Positions 9,301-64,000 of a DNA stretch of 64,000 bases are shown one piece after another. The position numbers and the translations under genes are program-made. Every line of letters begins with the position of its first letter. The stretch's first letter is position 1. The DNA comes from Cheilinus undulatus (taxonomy: Eukaryota > Chordata > Actinopteri > Labriformes > Labridae): assembly GCF_018320785.1 (NCBI RefSeq), contig NC_054873.1, positions 33,198,196 to 33,262,195 of the forward strand, written 5' to 3'. The notes under the pieces were generated by a model, which did not search any database, was not told the DNA's origin, and saw nothing but the letters and a program-made list of their open reading frames with translations.

Positions 9301-12300
9301 ATGCCATCCTCAAATGCAAGTAAAAGCTGTAACATGAAAGAAGAAGCCATATGTGAACACCATCCAGAAACATTCCTGTCTTCTCTGGGCCAAAGCTAAT
9401 TTAAAATGGACTAAGAAAAAATGGAAAACTGTTCTGTGGTCAAATGAATCAAAGTTTAAAATTTGTTTTTGGAAACCATAGACACTGTATCCTGCTGACT
9501 TAAGGGGAGAGGAACCATCCAGCTTGCTATCAGCAACCAGTTCAAAATCCTGCATCTCTGATGGTTGCATTAGTGCCTATGGCATGGATAGCTTATACCT
9601 TTAGAAAGGCACTATCCATGCTGAGAAGTATGTAAGGGTTTTAAAACAGCATATGCTGCTACAATATCTCTGTCAGGGAAGGTCTTGCATATTTCAGCAA
9701 GTCAATGCTAAACCACATACCGAATCCATCACAGCATTTTTGGAGTTAGGGTTGTGCTTTATTGGTTCCCAACCTGAAGTGCGGTGCCCCCTCTAGTTTT
9801 ATTTTGACAATAACATAGCTTTTGTGTGAGTTCTAGCATTTCTCATGGTCTTTGATGGACATCTGTGAATGAATTTGAATTTCCTTCAGGGTCAATAAAG
9901 AATTTATTTCTATCAGTGGAGGAGGGCTTCTATGGAACCATGGATCTAATTCAAGTTTCATCTCTTTACTCATGTGGTGACATCTGTATACGAATGACAA
10001 TCATGACATTGCTGATCTTAGCAGACCAAATTCCTACCTGGATGGCAGTGGGGTTAGGGCGCACACACAAAGGGTTTCCCTCTAATGTGAGTCTCTCCAG
10101 TTTACCACACAACCCCAGATACTGAATCTGGACAAGGTCGTCCACACTGTTCCCTTCCAGATCTAACAGCTGCAAATTTTCCAGCATCCCAACTGGACTC
10201 AAGTCTGACACATTGTTATAGGCAGCATACAACTCCTGAAAGACAGAAAGAGAAGGCACACATTAAAAACAAATACAGTGCTGTCCCATTTGTGCCCTTC
10301 CTGATTTCTTTTTCTTTGAGGTATTTGTCACTAAAATGCTTCAGGTCATACAAAATGCAGTGATTTAATGATAATCTTATTCATTAGTGGAAAAAAGCCA
10401 CCCAAACCTTCCTGGGCCTATGTGAAAAAGTAATTGTCCCCTAAACCAAATAACTGATTGTGCCACCCTTTGCGGCAACAACTGCAAACTAGCATTTGTG
10501 TTAACGGTCAGTGAGTCTTTCACATCACTGAGGAGGAATTTTAGCCCACTCTTCTGTGCAGAATCATTTTATTTCAGCCACATTTGAAGGTTTTCAACAT
10601 GAACAGCCTGTTTAAGGTCATGCTGCAACATCTCAATTAGATTTAAGTTTGGACTTTAACAAGGCCACTCCAAAACCTTCATTTTGTTTCATTTTTTAAC
10701 CCATTCAGAGGAGGACTCGCTGTTGTGTAATGTGAATCATTGCCCTGCTGAATAACCATAGTGCGATTGAGCTTGAGGTCACAAACTGATGTTGAACATT
10801 ATTCTTCAGGATTTTCCGGTAAAGAGCAGAATTCATGGTTCCATCAATTACGGCAGGTCTTCCAGGTCCTGAAGTAGCAAAGCGGCCCCACACATCACAC
10901 TGCCTCCACCATGTTTTACTGTTGGTATGATGTTCTTTTGATAAAATGCTGTGTTAGTTTTAAGCCAGATGTAACAAGATGCACACCTTCCTAAAAGTTT
11001 CGCTTTTGTCTCACCAGTCCACAGAATACTTTCCCAAAAGTGTTGGGGCTTATCAAGATTTTTTTGTCAAATGTGAGATGAGCTGGGCCTCGGTGTAACT
11101 CCGTTAGTAGAGCACGCACCTACACGCAGTCATGTAGTCCTCAATGCACTGGTCACGGGATTGATTCCCGGTGTCACCATTGATTTGGTAGATGTCTTCC
11201 CCCCACTCTTTCTCCCCATATTTCCTGTCTCTCTTCAGATGTCCTATAAAACAAAGTAAAAAATGTCCCAAAAATAATGTAAAAAATCTGAATTGAGCTT
11301 GTGTGTCCTTTTAGGTCAGCAGTGGTTTTAGCTTTGGCACTTTTTCTATAGATGCCATTTTAGCCCAGTCTTGTTCTTGTTCTTGTTCTCTAATCATAAA
11401 CACTGACCTTTACTGCAGGTCTTTAAATGTTATTCTGGGTTCTTTTCTTTCTTCCTGTATGAGTGAATAATGCACTCTTAGAGTAATTTTGAAAGTGGCC
11501 ACTTCTGGGAAGGGAAGTTTTCTTGGGAAGTTTTCTCCATTTGTGGACAATGGCTCTCACCATGGTTTGCTGGAGTCCCAACGCCTTAAAAATGGCTTTG
11601 TAACCCTTTCTGGACTGATAGATATCAATAATTTTTCTCTTCTGTTCTTGAATTTCTTAAGCTCGTGGCATGATGTGTTTCTTGTTGATATCTTTTGGCC
11701 TACTTCACCTCGTCAGTCAGATTAAACTTGAGTGATTTTTCGATTCAACAGGTCTGGCAGTAATCGGGCCTGGGTGTGGCTATTAAAATTGAACTCAGCT
11801 TTCTGTAAAATGTGATTAATCACAGTTAATTTATGATTTAACAAGGGTGGGTATTACTTTTCCACATAGGGCCAGGTAAGTTTGGATTTTTTTCCCCTTA
11901 ATAAATAAAATAAACATTAAAAAACTGCACTTCTATTAACTCAGGTTATGTTTGCCTAATGTGATCTGAAACATCTAAGTTTGGCAAATATGGAAAAAGT
12001 AAGAAATCAGAAAGGGGGCAAATATTTTTCACAGCACCGTACAGAATATTACCATCAAAACTACATCACTTACAAGCCTTATGTCTAAGACGCACAAGCC
12101 TTATGTCTAAGACGCACAAGCCTTATGTCTAAGACGTACTTTTAATTGCTTCTGCAAATGAAGGGCTTATTTGCAAGACAGATAACCCTGTTTTTTCGGC
12201 ATGTGGCTTCTACTACAAAACATGAACTTTGACCCAGTTTCCCACAGGCTTTATCAGATTTTGCACCAAAATGGATTTTAGATCAGAAGACATCTCAATT

Positions 12301-17684: not shown

Positions 17685-18332
17685 TGCCTATAAAAAGCAT
17701 TCACCCTGTGGATGTTTTACCCTTTTTATTGGTTTTATAAATCAATCATATAGACTGAAAAAGATTGTCCTCCAGGATTTTCCTTTATTTTGAAGCATTC
17801 ATTTCACTCTACCTTTACAAGCATTCCAGAGCTGGCTGCTGAGAAGCACCCCCACAGCATAATGCTGCCACCACCATGCTTCACAGTGGGGATGGTGTGT
17901 TTGTGTTGATGTGCAGTGTGTGGTGTTTGCCAAACTTAGCATCTTGTCTGAAGACCAAAAAGCACCATTTTGATCTCATCAGACCAAAGAACTTTCTTCC
18001 ACTTGACCATGGAGCCTCCCACATACCTTTTGGTGAACTCTAGTCGAGATGTAACCTGAGTTTTCTTCAACAGTGGCTTTCTCTTTGCAGCTCTCCCATG
18101 AAGCTTTGACTGGTGAAGAACCCAGGCAGCAGTTTTATGCAGAGTCTCTCTCATCTCAGCTGCTGAAGCCTGTAACTCCTTCAGACTAGTCAGAGTTGTC
18201 TTGGTGGCCTCTCTCACTCGCCTCCTTCTTGCACAGTCACTCAGTTTTTGAGGACGGCCTGATCTGGGCAGATTTACACATGCGCCATATTCCTTCCATT
18301 TCTTGTCGATAGATTCAACATCAGGGGATGTT

Positions 18333-19895
18333 ATAGTAATAATAATAATAATAAACTTTATTTGTATATCACCTTTAAAAACAGAGGTTTACAAAATGCT
18401 TGGACAATAAGCAGAATCACAATTACGAAGCATCAAACACAAACAGCAAAACATCACAAGAAAGACAAAAGCCCAACAACTGGAGAATCCATGAAAAACT
18501 CAGCCAGCAATGTCACTTCAACATCTTAAAAACTAGCAGAACATTCTAAACACGAAAATGATCTCAAATTAGAAGACATTTTAAAAACCCAGATATGTAA
18601 GATTCCATGATAAAAGTGGATAAAAACCCAGAATAATCTAAACCAATCCAGGCAACACAGGACCCAACTACACACAAGAAACCTAAGGATCAGAAATGTA
18701 TAAGAATTTGAAATATTAGGAAGAGACAGAATGGAATATAAATCAAAACTGTAAATGTGTAGAGGTTAACAAGTCATCATACGAAAATTAAAATTCTAGA
18801 CAGTTAAAGATATTAATCAGAATCATAATGATGATAATAGATAATAATAATAGGGGGTTAAAAGCTCTGTTAGGTAGTTTGGAGCCAGGCCCTTCAGTGC
18901 TTTAAAAGTAATGAGTAAAATCTTAAAATCAATTCTAAAACTTACAGTTACAGTAAACAAGTCTGGAGAAGATGAAGGCATGGAGGATTTTGTTATGGTC
19001 TGACTGGCTAAGTATTGATTTTATTTTGGCGATAGGCTCTGAAACCTTAAAACTCCAGGATTAGAATGATTAACTAAAATTAGATTAGAATAAAATACTG
19101 CCCTTGCATTCTTCCAAATATCTTTAAAAACTTACAAACCTTACTTTTTCCATTTTCTTTCTTTTATTCTACAGTCCCTCTTTAGTTCATTTATGGACTC
19201 TGTCAGCCAGGGCTGGGGTGTACTGTTTGACCTTTTCTCTTTAAAAGGTGCAACAGGGTCCAGGGCAAATTTATAAGTGTGATAAAAAAAAGAGAGACAA
19301 GCTCTTCTGTGTTAAAATTTGGATTAAGGGCAGTTAAAGACGCAAAATCAAAGATCGCCTTAGACTTACCGGCAGACTGAATTAAAAACCCTTCTAAGAA
19401 CAGGTGCATTTTCAGTAAAAGCTGGCTGAGATAAAACCATGTTAAATAAAATCAGTTTGTGGTCTGACAAACAGATATCCTTAGTAAAAAAATCATCAGG
19501 ATTAAGACTAATGTATAAAACCAAATCAAGCTTGTGGCCTTTAGAGTGAGTGGGTTCCTGTATCGCCTGGGTGAGATTAAAAGATTCAAGAGTTTCCATA
19601 AAATCAATGGACAGAGTTTGCGAGGGACAGCATACATGTATATTAAAATCACCCAAAATGAGAATTCTGTCATATTTAGAAATAAAATGGGATAAAAACT
19701 CTGAAAACTCTTGAATAAAAGCATTGTTGGGTTTGGGTAGTCTGTATATCAATATGATTAAAACAGGATCTTTTGATTTGATAATAAAAGTGAGGTGTTC
19801 AAATGACTTAAAACTGTTATTTCAGATGGGGGGACATTTAAAAATGTTCTTATAAATGACAGCATCTGATAGCCTGGGGCTGCTGAAGGTAAGTA
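18333..19895 (-). mobile_element. LINE with endonuclease domain, reverse transcriptase lost
   Basis: The minus-strand frame 19752-19366 encodes YRLPKPNNAFIQEFSEFL, RILILGDFNIHV and GHKLDLVLYISL and ISVCLSDH-like residues, typical of an APE-type endonuclease in fish LINEs. A following frame to about 19203 continues the linker. The reverse transcriptase is absent. The 3' end is an AAATAAAGTTTATT then (ATT)n tail at about 18336-18362. Clade not assigned. Confidence 0.7.
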
Positions 19896-53199: not shown

Positions 53200-53439
53200 A
53201 TTGGGTTATTGATGTCGTCCAGTCTTGTTTGTCTGTGCTTGTAGCCTAGTTTTATGTTGTTTTAGGGCAAATGATTTGCATGAATGGGCAGCTGCTTTCT
53301 GACTGGCTCTCAGGTGTCATAAAACACAGGAGTTTATCCATAAACCCGGGGCAGACAAGAAGCCAAGGGATTGTGAGGCTTAGTGATCGAAGAGATACAC
53401 AGAGAAAGTGCTGTTCTTACTTTCAGATCAAATCTAATC
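53200..53439 (+). promoter_or_regulatory. Presumed promoter of UEV-only gene
   Basis: An octamer-like atttgcat lies at 53274-53281 and a weak TATA-like cataaaac at about 53319. No GC boxes, unlike tsg101. Start of transcription not known. Confidence 0.3.
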
Positions 53440-56400
53440 ATGTCTTACAGTGAGGAAAAGATTAAGAAAATGCTTCCTAAGGTAAGGAGAACTCTTGGGT
53501 GAACTCATAACTGCACTCCTATTTGGATTAGTTTTGATTGTTTGTATTTTGTTTGTTTGTTTGGTGTAAAGACATATCTTAGGAAGCATGTGGCTAATGA
53601 AATTAGTGTTGCAGTGACTCACTTCAAACATCTTGTCCCAGTGATGGACAAATACGGTAAGATAAAACTTACCTGATCTAACACAGTATGTGGAAAATGT
53701 CAACTTGAAATAGTCAAATGGAGCCATTCACTGTTTAATGTTTTACAGTTTACAACGATGGAACCACTAAGGACTTGATGAGTCTGACGGGAACCATTCA
53801 AGTCAAGTATACTGGTAACAATCCCTTTATATTTCACACTGGTTTTAACTGTGAGACCATTTTATCACATGTGTGGAACAATTCAAATCATAAATGTTTA
53901 TAAAAACACACACAGGAGCGGGATACAAAGATGTTCTTTAGGAGGCTAAGTAACATACACAAAGAATAATGCCAAGCTACACCTTTTTTTCCTGCTGTAA
54001 GCTGGAACAAAGTATTTTTTACTGGGGACAGGGCTTAGGTATATGACATGGTGCCACAGACATTAACTTTCAGTCAAGGAAATGCACTGACTGGAAGATC
54101 AACATGAATTCTTAAAGGAAACCACTGATGGTCTCAGGGTTTAGTACAGGTGCACTGATAGTGTAAAGCTGGAGGAAATGTGGGATGACAGGGGATCATC
54201 TGTTTATTTTTGTGACTGTTCAGATTCTGGTGTAAAGATAAAGGCGTAAAGGTAAAGGAGATAAAAATACTCAAAGTCAACCTGTCTTTCAACCACATAT
54301 TATTTTGACTTAGGAAAAGTTTCAAAAAAGTAACAAATAGGACCAAAGATAGACTGTTTCAAACTGATAATTTGGAGCTATTAAGTTTGTCAAGCAATTA
54401 TTGGGTTCTGATGTTGGAATAATTTATTTGTGCTACTTTTTAACCTGTTTCACCACTTTTTACACACATTTTTTACAACTTCTACCTCTTTAAACCCATT
54501 TTTGCTTCTTTTTGCAATTTTTAACCGTTGCGTTGTTGTTGTTTACCCTAGTTTGCCCCTTTTAGCCCATTTTTGTTTCTTTTCACATATTTTTTACTTC
54601 TTCTGTGCCACTTTTAACCCATTTTGCCAGTTTCTTGGACCCTTTCCCCACTTTCATTCCTTTTTTTTGCAGCCTTTTCACCTTTTTTACCTCTTTTTTC
54701 ACTTTCAACCCAAACCGTATTTGCAGCTTTTTCATTGTTTGCCTCGGTGTTTGTCACTTTTAACCCGTTTTCACTGCCTTCTACGCATTTTTCACCACTT
54801 TTTTCACCACTCTTAACCCATATTTGCTACTTTTCACACATTTACAACACTTCTTTATGCTACTTTATATAATTTTTGCACTATTTTGCTGCTTTTATAA
54901 CACATTTTTTGCAGCCTTTTTCCCATGTTTGCCACTTTTTCACCACTTTAATAATTTGTGCCGTTTTCGCCAATTTCTACTTCATTTGGCACTTTAAACC
55001 CATTGTTGCATTATTTTGCCATTTTTATCTCATTTTTGCTGCTTACTGCCCTTGTTTGCCTCTTTTTTGCCACTTTTCACCCATTTTTTGCCACTTTTTA
55101 CCCATTTTAGTCACTTCTTGTGTCAGTTTCTTCTACTTTATTTTCTGGCATCCTGATCTTTGTTTTTGCCTCGTCATGAAGTCTGACCTTACTTTTCTAA
55201 TTGTTTACTTCAGTGTGCCAGCCCACACTGCAAACATTACCAATAAAAAGGGAATGATGTTTTTAGAAAAAGGGTTTGCATGAAAAAGGCCGTACTTTAC
55301 TTCTGCATAAATGAATAAGTGTATTTTTGTACTTTGACAAGAGTGGTTATTATTCAAATTTGAAATAAAATAGTGCTATCACTTTACAGTGGACCATTTT
55401 TGCTGACCACCAAGGGCTGCCAGTTTGGCTGGACCCCAGAAAGCTCTCCTCTTTATCCCCCTTACAGGCTGCCTTATTAGCAAAAAAAAAATACTGAACT
55501 TTTTTCGTCATTAGCCAATGAAATAACACCGATGGTCTCAGAGAAAAATCTGCATAATTTAATGACAGGAATATTGCATATGAGGTTGGATGTACATTTA
55601 CATAGATGGAATCTGACTGTCTGAATACTTGGATGTGTAGCTGTTTGTCAAAATAGATCATCTGATGTTTTCTTATTTCCTTTAGGAAGTTTGAATATAA
55701 TTAAATGAATTAAAATTTGGTCAAATTTGCCACTTTGAATATTTGTAATAATGTGTTGATAAATCACCTTATCCTCTTGTTCTTTCCCAAGACAAGTCCT
55801 ACAACATCCCTGTGTGCCTATGGCTTGAAGAAAGCTATCCCCAGACTCCCCCCATCTGCTACGTCAGACCCACACGGGAGATGATGGTTGTCCGGGGAAA
55901 GTTTGTGTCCACTAATGGGGAAGTGATCCTACCTTACTTGGATGAGTGGAAAAATGTAAAAACTTGAAACTTCATATTGCATTCTTTAACAGAGCTGCAT
56001 GTAAAAGCAGACGTATTTAGATGTTTATATCCAGCTGTGTTCTTTCCTCCACTCAGGGTGAATGTGACCTGGTGAGCCTCCTCCAGGTGATGAGTGTCAT
56101 GTTTGGAGACTTCCCTCCTGTTTGTATGCGGCCCCATCCCGAGCCAGAGCTGTCTTCTTGTAAGTAACACTCCCACAGACAGTAAACCAGCCTGAGTTCA
56201 GTTTCAAAACATGTTGTGCCCTGGAAATGTATTTATCTGACATTCATATCTAGGCCACACCTGATTGAACGTGAATCAAGGTCTAATAGCCTCATAAATC
56301 AAAGGCTGAGGCTGTCTTTCTTCATCATCATGTTTATGAACCTATCGTGATTGACCAACACTCTCACTGACAGAGAAATATATCTTTTAGGTTGGCTGCA

Positions 56401-56512
56401 GTTCCATCAGAAACGAGCACGAGTGCTGTCAAATTCAGATGGAGAAATGTATCTGTGTTTACCCAAAGAAGACGGCCAACCTTTCCAGCAAGAGCATGAA
56501 ACAACCTGTTAG
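53440..56512 (+). CDS. TSG101-like protein, UEV domain only (6 exons)
   Basis: Exons 53440-53481, 53572-53656, 53749-53814, 55792-55955, 56057-56159 and 56391-56512 join in frame to 193 residues plus TAG; all introns are GT-AG. Residues 1-145 align without gaps to the TSG101 UEV domain: YNDGTTKDLMSLTGTIQVKY, SYNIPVCLW, TPPICYVRPT, LPYLDEW, FGDFPPVCMRP. As in other UEVs there is no catalytic Cys (Ile at the position of human Tyr110). Ubiquitin-side Asn45 and peptide-groove Thr58, Tyr63, Tyr68, Asn69, Thr92, Met95 and Val141 are kept, but Phe142 and Ser143 are Cys and Met. The 48-residue tail (CWLQFHQKRARVL) has no coiled coil, proline-rich region or steadiness box, so it cannot enter ESCRT-I like TSG101. 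UEVLD was considered but lacks its dehydrogenase part here. Function unknown. Confidence 0.85.
54430..55140 (+). repeat. Pyrimidine-rich degenerate minisatellite
   Basis: About 700 bases of drifting units such as ttttgccacttttcaccca, in intron 3 of the UEV gene. Long Phe/His/Leu-rich frames over it are artefacts of composition. Confidence 0.75.
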
Positions 56513-57344: not shown

Positions 57345-57545
57345 AGTTAAATGCCTGTAGTCCTCGTGGTTTTCTTAATGGTCAGTCTTTTGTGTGTTTC
57401 TGGGCGCAGATGGCCTGGGTTCAGTTCCAGCCTGAGGCTCCTTTCCCTCATGTCTCTGCCCTTCTCTCTCATCCTTGTCTCAGACTTTATCCATTATTCT
57501 CCTGTCAAAGACATATAAAGACCCAAAAATAAATCTTATAATTAA
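57345..57545 (+). mobile_element. tRNA-derived SINE, copy 5
   Basis: gggcgcagatggcctgggtt, cagttccagcctgaggctcc, a C/T-rich body and an A-rich tail with aagacccaaaaataaatc. Between the two tsg101-type genes. Confidence 0.65.
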
Positions 57546-58544: not shown

Positions 58545-59960
58545 AATATTTCATCTATCCTGTAGTGTCTTCAGTTCTGCTAGATAGTTAATCAAAGGGC
58601 TCCAAGTAGTCTCAAATGTTCCAGGTGACCCCCTTAGGGTATACTTGATTTTCTCCAGTTTTAAGAAAAGCATGAGGTCATTAAGCCATAGAGATAATTT
58701 GGGGAGAAACGGTGACTTCCACTCCAGTGTTATTCTCCTACGTGCTAATGGAGATGCAAAGGCAATGCTGTCTTTAGTTGTCCTTCTAATTATTTGACAA
58801 CCTGAACATATTACAAAGATGGCTATATCTGCACATGGTGTCAATACTGTGTTTAATGCCTCAGAGAAGTGTTTGAAAATAGCTGTCCATAACCTTGGAG
58901 ACAAGAACAGGACCAAAACATATGTGTCATGTTTGCTGGTGACATGTGACATCTATTACAGGAATCTGTGGTATTTGGGTATATTTTGGAGAGTTTATGG
59001 TTGGTAAAATATATCTGGTGCACAACCTTAAATTGTATCAAGCTTAGCCTGGAACAGGATGTGTTGTCATTAACTCTGGTTAATGCAACTTGCCAGTCAA
59101 CATCCTCTATGACTCTACCAAGTTCTTCTTCCCACTTGTTTTTAATCTTTTCAAGAGAGGTCTCTGTGAGTTGGGAAGTTAAACTATAGATTTTTGAAAT
59201 AAGACCTTTCTGATTCATAGGGATGTCCAAGATTGAGTCAACTACAGAGTTAGGAGGGATGCTGGGGAAGGAGCCATTGTGTAATTTAACAAAGTTGTAA
59301 ACCTGAAAGTATCGGAATAAATGAGATTTCAGTAAGTTTAATTTTACACACAATTCACTAAAACTGGCAAAAACATTGTTGATGTAAAGAATTGGCAGCT
59401 TAGATGTGAGAAGAGCCAAGAGAGAGGTGGAGTGACAGGATTTGGCTTCAAGTTCACACCAATTAAATGCTGGTTCCTGAATCCACAAGCCATTTTGTGT
59501 ATTAGCTGCCCAATACTGTCTTAGATTAGGGATTGACAGTCCACCAACAGATCTGTGTCTCCTTTCAAAACTCTTTTTGTAATCCTGGGGGTCTTACCTT
59601 TTCATACAAAAGAATAAGTTAATGTATGTATTTATTGTAATATAAAAGGAGTTAGGAAGAAGATTGGCAGACATTGGAAAAAGGTATAAAAAGCGTGGGA
59701 GCACGTTCATTTTAATACGATTTATCCCCCAGCTACAATTATTTGTAAATTGTTCCATCTTTCCAGGTCCAATCTGAGCTTGTCGATTAAGGGTGGGAAA
59801 TTGTTCTTATATAGCTCTGCTAGCTGCTGACAAATGTTAACACCTAAATACTTGAAACTATTATTAGACAAATTAAAAGGGAGGAATCTGTCAGGGATCT
59901 CCAGAGCCAGGTATGGCCTACAGGAAAGCATTCACTTTTCGATTAGTTCAGTTTATAACC
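58545..59960 (-). pseudogene. L1/Tx1-like LINE, reverse transcriptase 3' part
   Basis: A minus frame 59488-58853 encodes 211 residues, including QFKVVHQIYFTNHKLSKIYP and CNRCHMSPANMTHMFWSC, the C-terminal Cys/His knuckle of L1-type ORF2. Upstream, 59931-59722 encodes FKYLGVNI...LYKNNFPPLIDKLRLDLERW, the thumb region. The two are in broken register and the 5' two thirds are missing. Lies between the two tsg101-type genes. Confidence 0.8.
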
Positions 59961-60861: not shown

Positions 60862-63800
60862 ATGGCTGTTGTTAACGAAGGTGCCCTGAAGAAAATGCTG
60901 AAGGTAAGCTCACTCCTCGACAGTTTCGGTCATGTTAGCTGTTAGCTAAGGTAGGCGATACCAAACATGACAACACAAGCCAGTTGACATTTCCTGATTT
61001 GAATTTTTGACTAATAAGGGACCATTAATCCTCATTTAAAGCGTAATTTGTTATACTTTGGACGCGAAATTGATACATTTATCTGATATCCCCCATATGT
61101 ATTAAAACCTGGGGTTATGGGAGACAAAGTAGAATTAACACGCTAACTTCAACACGTTACTCTAAGGGTTTCATATCATGTTATATAAATATATGACTAT
61201 TTTACTGTTTGTAACACAAAATTCCCTTTGTACTCGCAAAAGAACTTAGAGCTGACGCTCATTTTTTCAGACTTCTGTGCATTAAAACGCAGTTTACTGG
61301 TGTATGTGTTCATTTGCATATTGTAAACAACGAGCCTCTCCTTGTGAAAACACTTCTTTAGTATTCAAAGATTAAATTTAAGGCGAGGCTCCATACTTGG
61401 TCCTCGGTATAAAAGTATGTTTAATAGGCCTGTCAAATTATTATAATTTTAATTCAGGATTCCCAGTTAACCCTTTACAGGGCACTCATTGAAATAGAAT
61501 ATTATTGGTGGACATCTCAATACTTTTTTGTATAGGGCTGCTACTATATCACAATTTTCCAGTCTAACTAGTACTTATACTTGGTATACCAAGCACATAT
61601 ATGAGTACTTGGTAATACTAACACTGGTGTTAAAATTATTTTGGAAGTTTGTTTTATTTTTATAGATGTTATTCATCCCTGCTCTAGACAATATATCAGT
61701 GCATTGTTGTCATTATCCTCTACGTTTTCATCCTCAGTTGATGTTAAAATATCAACAAACTGCAGACATTGCTCCAGCTTTGACTATATACTCACATACC
61801 GATTACAGTTTTTACGGTGTTTGATGAGTATGAGTACTTAAGAAATTCTTAATGATTATGGTTTAAAAACCTATTAAGTGTATGCGTATTGAGATAGAAA
61901 TAATGGAAAATTAAGACATATGGAGTCTAATAACTTTTTACTTTCACATTCAGAAGTTATTTAAATAAAAAAAAAAATCATTTTACAAGACATGGTGAGG
62001 TTGTCTTTAGATTTTTAGGCAAGACATACTGTATAAGTAACGGTGGTACCACCCATTTCATCTTAGTATTCCAACTGGATGCTTATAGTAAATACAAATA
62101 TGGTATAACTTTTTAGCAGTGATTAGGCTCACAATAAAAATAAACACTGATTTATGCCATTAAAGTATAATAAATCTATTACACTCTTGTAAACCTGACT
62201 AAAATCACATTTCAATATTCATACAACCTAGTTTCTTTCATTATTCAATCAGAGAAAGTAAAAAACATGACAAACTAAACCATGAAAAACTCAATTAACA
62301 TATTGTTGAGAGAAAAAAAAAAGACAAATGTCTAAATTAATTTCAACATTAAAAAGAGAAACTGATACAAACCACACACATAGTAAAACTGTTAATAGGT
62401 TTAAAACTGAACAAAAATCACCTGTTTTGCTATTTATATCTTGGAAATTTTTATAAATTAGTACAGTTTACCACTAGAGCACTCTTTATTTTTTACAAAC
62501 CTTTGGCAACATTTGACTACACTATAGAGTACTATTCTCTTACATTATAATGGGTTATTCATCAATAAAATAGTATGGCTTTCTTGATGAGCTGGCCATA
62601 AGTTTAAATAAAGACACAGTTTCACACCCTTAAACAGGCCTATGTCCAATGACTCCTCCATTTTTCACGCTAAAATTTCAGTTACTGCTTGAAATCCTAT
62701 GCCAAACAAAATCTTGCACATTTAGAGTAATTACTACTATTCACCTCTATAATGTGTGAATTAATCGACGTATCATTGTTGGTTATGATTTTAGTGGCAT
62801 TTTTTTAGTACCAAAAGAGACAAGGAACTGAATTTTTCCAGTTGTGGAGGAAACAGGAAGTCAGTGACGCTCTCTGCCACTGCTGATTGGTCAGATGCTG
62901 TGATGTCCCTTTCCATGATGTTGACTGATCTCCACTGATTTCACAAGTATCACAAAGAGTTGGGGGAGGCCACATAGGAAATGGACTTTATGATTCCTTG
63001 CCCCATAAAGGGTTAATAAAGATTATTTGCACCTTTTTGTCACATTAAAAAAAAAAACAACAATTTTGCATGTAGAACTGTTTTTGTTTTTATTTTGGAT
63101 TTTTGAGCGGTCTTAAACTAAAGGTTATTGACTTCCTGTTTTGCTACAGACCTACTTTTATTAAAATACAGATTTAAAGTTACATCAAATATTGTTTTAT
63201 GAACTTAACCAAAGAAAAGAGAACTTGTTATGGATTGAAAGGGAACTTGTTTTGAATTAAAACAGAAATAAGGGAACATTAAATGGTGACATGCAGGGAC
63301 AGATGGCTTTTGACTTGTACACTCGAATGTCGGTGAGTATTTTTTTTAAAGAGAAATGAGACATTGGGGGCAGTGATGTACTTATTTAATGCCACTGTGA
63401 CTGCAGGGAGGCGCTGCAGTTGTATAACCAAAGATGAATTGAATAATTTAGCAAGTCATTTATTAAAATCTTAAAAAATGCACCAATTATCAGCCTTAAT
63501 TAATTGCCATTAATGTTGGGCCCTAGTATTTAAACAGACGATACAAGTGTCTAAGATTGTTTTGAACATTTTATTTTCATGCTCCTGATCTTTTGTTCCC
63601 TGCTCTTTTCTTATTATTCAGCAATACAAATACAGAGACCTGACTGTCCGTGAGATAACCAATGTCATCTCCCAGTACAAGGATCTGAAGCCAGTTATGG
63701 ATGCTTACGGTAAACTTAACTTATCAAACTCAGATCTTATTTTTGTCTTAATTATATGTAGTTGTTTTATTTTGTTAGAAGATAGAATATATGGAAATGC

Positions 63801-64000
63801 TGTTTGACATTGGATCTTTTTTGTATTTCAGTATTTAATGATGGCTCCACAAGGGACCTGATGAGCCTGACAGGAACCGTGCCAGTGAGCTACAGAGGTA
63901 AATTAAGTTTAGTTTGCTTTCTGAGAATACAGCTGGTCCCTAAAACATTTATTATCACATTTGGAATCAGGAAACTGGACAATAAATCTCAGCTTCTGTG
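60862..64000 (+). CDS. tsg101: TSG101, ESCRT-I subunit, 5' part (first three exons)
   Basis: Exons 60862-60903 (MAVVNEGALKKMLK), 63622-63709 (QYKYRDLTVREITNVISQYK onward) and 63832-63897 (VFNDGSTRDLMSLTGTVPVS, YR) encode residues 1-64 plus one base; the gene continues past the right edge. The N-terminus is nearly the vertebrate TSG101 UEV domain, which binds PTAP motifs and ubiquitin for endosomal sorting (family knowledge). Exon sizes 42, 88 and 66 compare with 42, 85 and 66 in the upstream gene. Which fish paralogue (a or b) is not decided. Confidence 0.93.
60904..63621 (+). other. tsg101 intron 1
   Basis: AT-rich, 2.7 kb. Short repeats such as tacttggtataccaagcac near 61578 occur, but no gene or clear mobile element was recognised. 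Confidence 0.5.

Follow-up and report, generated by a model that had tools for sequence, protein, structure and literature searches.

Through its UEV domain TSG101 binds cargo or viral late domains and so connects them to the rest of ESCRT-I. The locus described here, in the fish Cheilinus undulatus, raises the question of where a gene that encodes a TSG101-type UEV domain and a short tail, and lies next to tsg101, came from and what it might do. We analysed a 64,000-nucleotide stretch of DNA (C9:33198196-33262195, hereafter the window; positions are window positions unless prefixed by a contig) and searched the 1.17-Gb C. undulatus assembly. On our best reading, which rests on comparison of genomic DNA and predicted protein, the gene would be a tandem, intron-containing tsg101 paralogue that retains the UEV module alone.

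The gene model and the predicted protein

The UEV-only gene lies at 53440-56512 on the plus strand; its six exons, separated by five introns that are all GT-AG, join into 582 nt encoding 193 amino acids and a stop. Exon 1 (53440-53481) starts with the ATG at 53440, holds 14 codons and ends in phase 0; exon 2 (53572-53656) has 85 nt; exon 3 (53749-53814; 66 nt) carries most of the segment equivalent to V43-Y63 of TSG101, including the equivalents of N45 and D46; exon 4 (55792-55955; 164 nt) encodes the core of the UEV domain, with the equivalents of Y68, N69, T92 and M95; exon 5 (56057-56159) completes the domain and ends in phase 1; and exon 6 (56391-56512), preceded by a short polypyrimidine tract, carries a private C-terminal tail and the TAG stop. 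The ATG has an A at −3, and the 20 codons before it contain no in-frame ATG and no in-frame stop either; because of the latter, we assigned the start from the gap-free alignment with TSG101, in which it falls on Met1. The first AATAAA 3′ of the stop (57528-57533, plus strand) is a candidate polyadenylation signal by pattern only, and would give a 3′ UTR of about 1 kb. The octamer ATTTGCAT and a TATA-like CATAAAA, at 53274 and 53318, lie 44 bases apart and 120-170 bases 5′ of the ATG; this may be chance.

The neighbouring tsg101 encodes 390 amino acids from an ATG at 60862, on the same strand and 4,349 bases past the stop of the UEV-only gene; its exons 1-3 lie at 60862-60903, 63622-63709 and 63832-63897 (plus strand), and exons 4-10 lie beyond the window end. 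A preliminary description had proposed six well-spliced exons giving an unbroken 193-residue protein, in tandem with tsg101, in the same direction and 4.3 kb upstream of it; both the arrangement and the model, with all splice sites GT-AG and the frame intact, are borne out here. The two genes differ at their starts: the observed/expected CpG ratio is 0.26 at the start of the UEV-only gene and 0.80 at that of tsg101, compared to 0.28 for the window. This lack of CpG richness, unlike tsg101, suggests that expression of the UEV-only gene may be restricted rather than housekeeping.

The arrangement is also what one would expect if the UEV-only exons served as a spare 5′ module: transcripts from their promoter would splice exon 5 to tsg101 exon 6 and yield a full-length TSG101 whose UEV head is the alternative one, and UEV-only exon 6, with its own stop, would be one of two 3′ ends. 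The genes are in tandem on the same strand, the end of UEV-only exon 5 and the entry of tsg101 exon 6 are both phase 1, and 9.3 kb separates exon 5 (56159) from tsg101 exon 6 (65415, beyond the window end). However, the UEV-only model has a tail exon and stop of its own, tsg101 likewise a CpG-rich start, and we consider such splicing very unlikely.

Several other features were noticed in the window. Between the UEV-only gene and tsg101, a long open frame (58856-59593, minus strand) looks like a LINE remnant (zf-RVT, E 0.0033, below cut-off). Further left lie a Tc1/Tc3-type transposase fragment (17939-18388, minus strand; PF01498, E 1.1e-8), a LINE-type endonuclease fragment (19369-19821, minus strand; PF14529, E 8e-6, just under cut-off) and a leucine-rich-repeat exon (9969-10262, minus strand; PF12799, E 3.2e-7), which probably belongs to a minus-strand LRR gene at the left end.

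The sole Pfam match above cut-off in the UEV-only protein is UEV (PF05743; residues 23-141, E 1.8e-38, 131.5 bits vs. a cut-off of 27); UQ_con stays under its cut-off (E 0.0073). The best PDB match, 1kpp, a structure of the human TSG101 UEV, aligns without a gap over residues 1-145 (E 3.9e-47). PDB matches with E up to 0.001 comprise nine distinct sequences, seven of them TSG101 UEV chains and two Vps23/STP22 (E ~1e-8). Position 110, presumably the vestigial catalytic site (Y110 in TSG101), is isoleucine, so the protein has no catalytic cysteine. The protein had been described as the TSG101 UEV domain plus a short tail, and the gap-free alignment over 145 residues together with the PF05743 match agrees with that.

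The Vps23_core, or steadiness box, is the part of TSG101 that serves ESCRT-I assembly. The Pfam search of the 193-aa protein did not find it, and in the genome it has at least one match (all seven candidates scored), located in tsg101. With tblastn, no TSG101 C-terminal exons were detected between 56160 and 60861 or elsewhere in the window; as a positive control, the C-terminal search recovered tsg101's own exons in locus L004. The tblastn result and the lone Vps23_core found, that in tsg101, rule out hidden stalk and steadiness-box exons between both genes. Downstream exons that would restore a longer protein, one of the possibilities named against the original model, were thus looked for between the UEV-only gene and tsg101 and not found, and the placement of the gene outside ESCRT-I is supported so far as the TSG101 assembly core is absent.

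The tail of 40 amino acids, put forward in the preliminary description as lineage-specific, is dissimilar to TSG101; it has no Pfam match and just one PDB match, at E 1.6. Exon 6 has another open frame besides that of the tail; because of this, the open tail frame alone is no evidence. The joining of exon 6 to the UEV exons by splicing is a prediction. Two sources of the tail exon were considered and rejected: a dispersed repeat, since a second copy of exon 6 was not found in the genome, and tsg101 or uevld sequence, since the tail matched nothing in L004 and L005 and had one match in L006 at E 7.9.

Origin of the gene and its relation to uevld

The whole-genome UEV search identified at least three loci (all ten candidates scored): the UEV-only gene, tsg101 and C9:34011035. 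The last is uevld, about 0.76 Mb from the UEV-only gene, with UEV exons 2-5 (no exon 1 was recognised) followed by LDH-like exons on the same strand. For one uevld LDH exon (58 aa), the human UEVLD LDH domain (2i6t) ranks first of 43 PDB sequences (E 7.5e-12). The sole SPT2 match found (C9:34002678, E 6.3e-5), likely SPTY2D1, lies 8 kb upstream of uevld on the same strand. An LDH gene that we take by its sequence to be ldha follows downstream of tsg101, on the other strand. The human gene order is presumably SPTY2D1-UEVLD-TSG101-LDHA; here SPT2-uevld (C9:34.00-34.01 Mb) and UEV-only-tsg101-ldha (C9:33.25-33.27 Mb; loci L004, L005, L017 and L019 in all) lie about 0.75 Mb apart. Judged against that order, these positions indicate that the block is split here, the UEV-only gene belonging to the part with tsg101 and ldha. 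On another contig, L007 (C8:17051525-17051953) matches Ldh_1_N over positions 2-141 of 141 (E 1.7e-45) within a single 391-aa open frame; this near-full-length match, vs. exon-sized matches in the other eight cases, may be an intronless copy or foreign DNA.

The presumed human order, in which UEVLD directly precedes TSG101 on one strand, is mirrored by the position of the UEV-only gene, which could accordingly be read as a truncated or displaced uevld copy minus the LDH part; its exon 2 has the length of that of uevld (85 nt), and a quartet tree does not reject its grouping with uevld (p-AU 0.495). Nevertheless, a uevld that has LDH exons as well as UEV exons 2-5 lies 8 kb from the sole SPT2 match found, on the same strand, and the UEV-only protein is closer to TSG101 than to uevld. 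Over 131 aligned amino acids it shares 70 identities with TSG101 of its own genome, 67 with human TSG101 and 48 with uevld, and TSG101 of the same genome shares 57 with uevld and 113 with human TSG101. We regard an origin as a uevld copy as highly improbable. A mis-reading of uevld itself is disfavoured, since uevld with its LDH exons sits elsewhere on the same chromosome; this separate gene implies that the UEV-only gene is not uevld. Pfam found no LDH/MDH domain in the 193-aa protein, and four LDH exons used as tblastn queries reached a best E of 0.08 between the UEV-only gene and tsg101 and of 0.2 across the window.

Exons 2-4 have 85, 66 and 164 nt in the UEV-only gene, 88, 66 and 164 nt in tsg101 and 85, 66 and 164 nt in uevld; phase 1 is common to the three genes at the end of exon 5. 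These common internal exon lengths and phases argue for duplication at the DNA level and against a retrocopy. UEVLD has been proposed to stem from duplicated TSG101 exons joined to a new 3′ partner (extract of PMC2926785). At E < 0.01, the DNA of the UEV-only gene resembles that of tsg101 in one stretch at exon 3, which starts 10 bases inside intron 2, and in another in exon 4; as the similarity is limited to these stretches, we infer that the duplication is old. Exon 2 of C. undulatus tsg101 opens with one additional codon. Neither the UEV-only gene nor uevld nor human TSG101 has it, which hints faintly that the duplication may predate this insertion.

The tree of TSG101 and UEVLD UEV domains suggested in the preliminary description was built with four taxa; it rejects none of three topologies (p-AU 0.645, 0.227 and 0.495) so that a ray-finned duplication followed by a fast branch is not separable from an older one lost in mammals. 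The branch of the UEV-only gene in this tree has 0.76 substitutions per site, vs. 0.05 for tsg101. No relative turned up in viral or prokaryote contigs, as expected, Rfam gave no match at the gathering threshold, and a literature search under likely names found no UEV-only fish TSG101 paralogue in the titles and abstract starts of the matches listed.

Selective constraint and retention of contact residues

Differences between the UEV-only gene and tsg101 at codon positions 1, 2 and 3 number 41, 37 and 80 of 131. By the Nei-Gojobori method (NG86), dN is 0.388 and dS is saturated; the dN/dS check proposed at the outset therefore gives no usable ratio, although dN and the simulation below point to long-run constraint. 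When we simulated neutral drift in 5000 copies at the observed third-position divergence, the 131-codon frame was still open in 16, and identity averaged 13% with a maximum of 21%, vs. 53% observed. An open frame together with an identity beyond the simulated range rejects neutral drift over the whole branch. This points to selection on the UEV-only gene over most of its life, which says nothing of the present day.

The gene could be a fading duplicate, under strong constraint earlier, relaxed now and with little or no expression. The long branch (0.76 vs. 0.05 for tsg101), the poor match of residues 15-36 to human TSG101 (5 of 22 identical), the start without CpG richness and the short polypyrimidine tract before exon 6 all fit such a history, whereas the frame and all splice sites are intact and neutral drift at such synonymous divergence would have wrecked the frame. 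We consider fading unlikely.

Whether retention has favoured the binding surfaces was assessed on a largely provisional list of 26 contact sites (13 on the PTAP side and 13 on the ubiquitin side), most of them ascribed to structures of 2002 and 2004, with the 113 sites identical in both TSG101s as the baseline. The UEV-only protein keeps 63 of these 113 sites but 21 of the 26 contact sites (hypergeometric P 0.0028): 11 of 13 in the PTAP groove (P 0.023; list partly provisional) and 10 of 13 on the ubiquitin side (P 0.089, not significant alone; list mostly provisional). In uevld, 14 of 26 contact sites and 54 of 113 TSG101-identical sites are kept. Our comparison shows that, as judged from the aligned proteins, the listed PTAP-groove and ubiquitin-contact residues have been preferentially retained; contact sites may be retained for the fold, not for binding.

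M95 and N45 are both retained in the UEV-only protein, and uevld has serine at N45. These are the positions of the PTAP-binding (M95) and ubiquitin-binding (N45) mutants of TSG101 in passages of two reports (PMC7073217, PMC10231130), in the first of which alanine mutants of M95 and N45 impair PTAP and ubiquitin binding, respectively. Four of the six PTAP pocket residues named in an extract of another report (Y63, Y68, I70, M95, F142 and S143; PMC3217271) are kept, with F142 replaced by C and S143 by M. On the ubiquitin side, the changes are F44 to Y, S48 to T and F88 to Y.

Retained surfaces could also serve a partner other than ESCRT-I ligands, with the free UEV pairing with a ubiquitin-conjugating enzyme or chaperoning E3 ligases. 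In the hairpin V43-S48, 4 of 6 residues are retained. UBE2V1/2 pair with UBE2N and TSG101 is reported as an E3 ligase chaperone in part of PMC12513931, and the TSG101 UEV contacts a HECT domain according to passages of PMC9944984. The sequence is nevertheless TSG101-type (UEV E 1.8e-38; UQ_con E 0.0073, below cut-off), and retention on the PTAP side is no poorer than on the ubiquitin side (11 of 13 vs. 10 of 13), so that a role as an E2 or E3 partner seems decidedly unlikely.

A putative free UEV and its counterparts

The original interpretation, that a free UEV could compete with TSG101 for PTAP or ubiquitin ligands, is supported in part, by an intact tandem UEV-only gene without the ESCRT-I core and by 21 of 26 retained contact residues. 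We tentatively favour, at somewhat less than even confidence, the idea that the UEV-only protein acts as a free UEV outside ESCRT-I and as a natural decoy or tuner of ESCRT-I recruitment. Such a protein would bind P(T/S)AP motifs (e.g. those of HRS, LRSAM1 and viral late domains) and ubiquitin, would be unable to join the other ESCRT-I subunits, and would thereby limit the recruitment of ESCRT-I, in the manner of the artificial fragment TSG-5′; restricted expression would spare the housekeeping functions of ESCRT. TSG-5′ comprises TSG101 residues 10-240 and, when overexpressed, blocks HIV-1 budding (extract of PMC10807055). The likeness to TSG-5′ and the fact that no ESCRT-I assembly part was found both favour the decoy or tuner reading. 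Against it stand the changes at F142 and S143 of the PTAP pocket, the size of TSG-5′, which exceeds that of a UEV domain, and the long branch (0.76 vs. 0.05), which fits relaxed constraint too. Moreover, knockout cells grow again when given TSG101 that carries M95A or N45A (part of PMC7073217), so a block of those sites may be of no consequence to a cell. It is improbable, if conceivable, that selection has kept the gene to inhibit, upon induction or in certain tissues, the budding of viruses with P(T/S)AP late domains, as a natural TSG-5′ and the ESCRT-I counterpart of retroCHMP3.

A natural gene for the binding half alone would separate the functions of TSG101 without any engineering, and one could then ask directly by experiment whether animals rely on free UEVs to adjust endosomal sorting or to block virus exit. 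Beside UEVLD, it would be a further case in which the TSG101 UEV exons were duplicated together and acquired a new 3′ end.

Compared to TSG101 itself, the UEV-only protein is alike in its gap-free alignment over residues 1-145, its exon architecture, its M95 and N45 and its lack of a cysteine at the vestigial site, but it has no proline-rich region, coiled coil or steadiness box, carries a private 40-aa tail and sits on a longer branch. UBE2V1 and UBE2V2 are likewise UEV-only proteins, but they belong to a UEV subfamily different from the TSG101 type and have UBE2N as partner. retroCHMP3 is a truncated ESCRT-III retrocopy whose activity as a budding inhibitor was reportedly tested by Rheinemann in 2021; the likeness lies in the idea alone, a truncated ESCRT paralogue as budding inhibitor, whereas the UEV-only gene is an intron-bearing ESCRT-I paralogue. 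UEVLD (UEV3) shares a TSG101-type UEV, equal lengths of exons 2-4 and an origin proposed, in the extract of PMC2926785, from duplicated TSG101 exons; the UEV-only protein differs in having no LDH domain, in its separate locus and in keeping N45, which is serine in uevld. TSG-5′, as far as the extract of PMC10807055 describes it, is likewise a UEV-bearing piece of TSG101 without the ESCRT-I core, but it is an overexpressed construct of residues 10-240, whereas the gene described here is a germline gene, known from sequence, that ends soon after the UEV domain.
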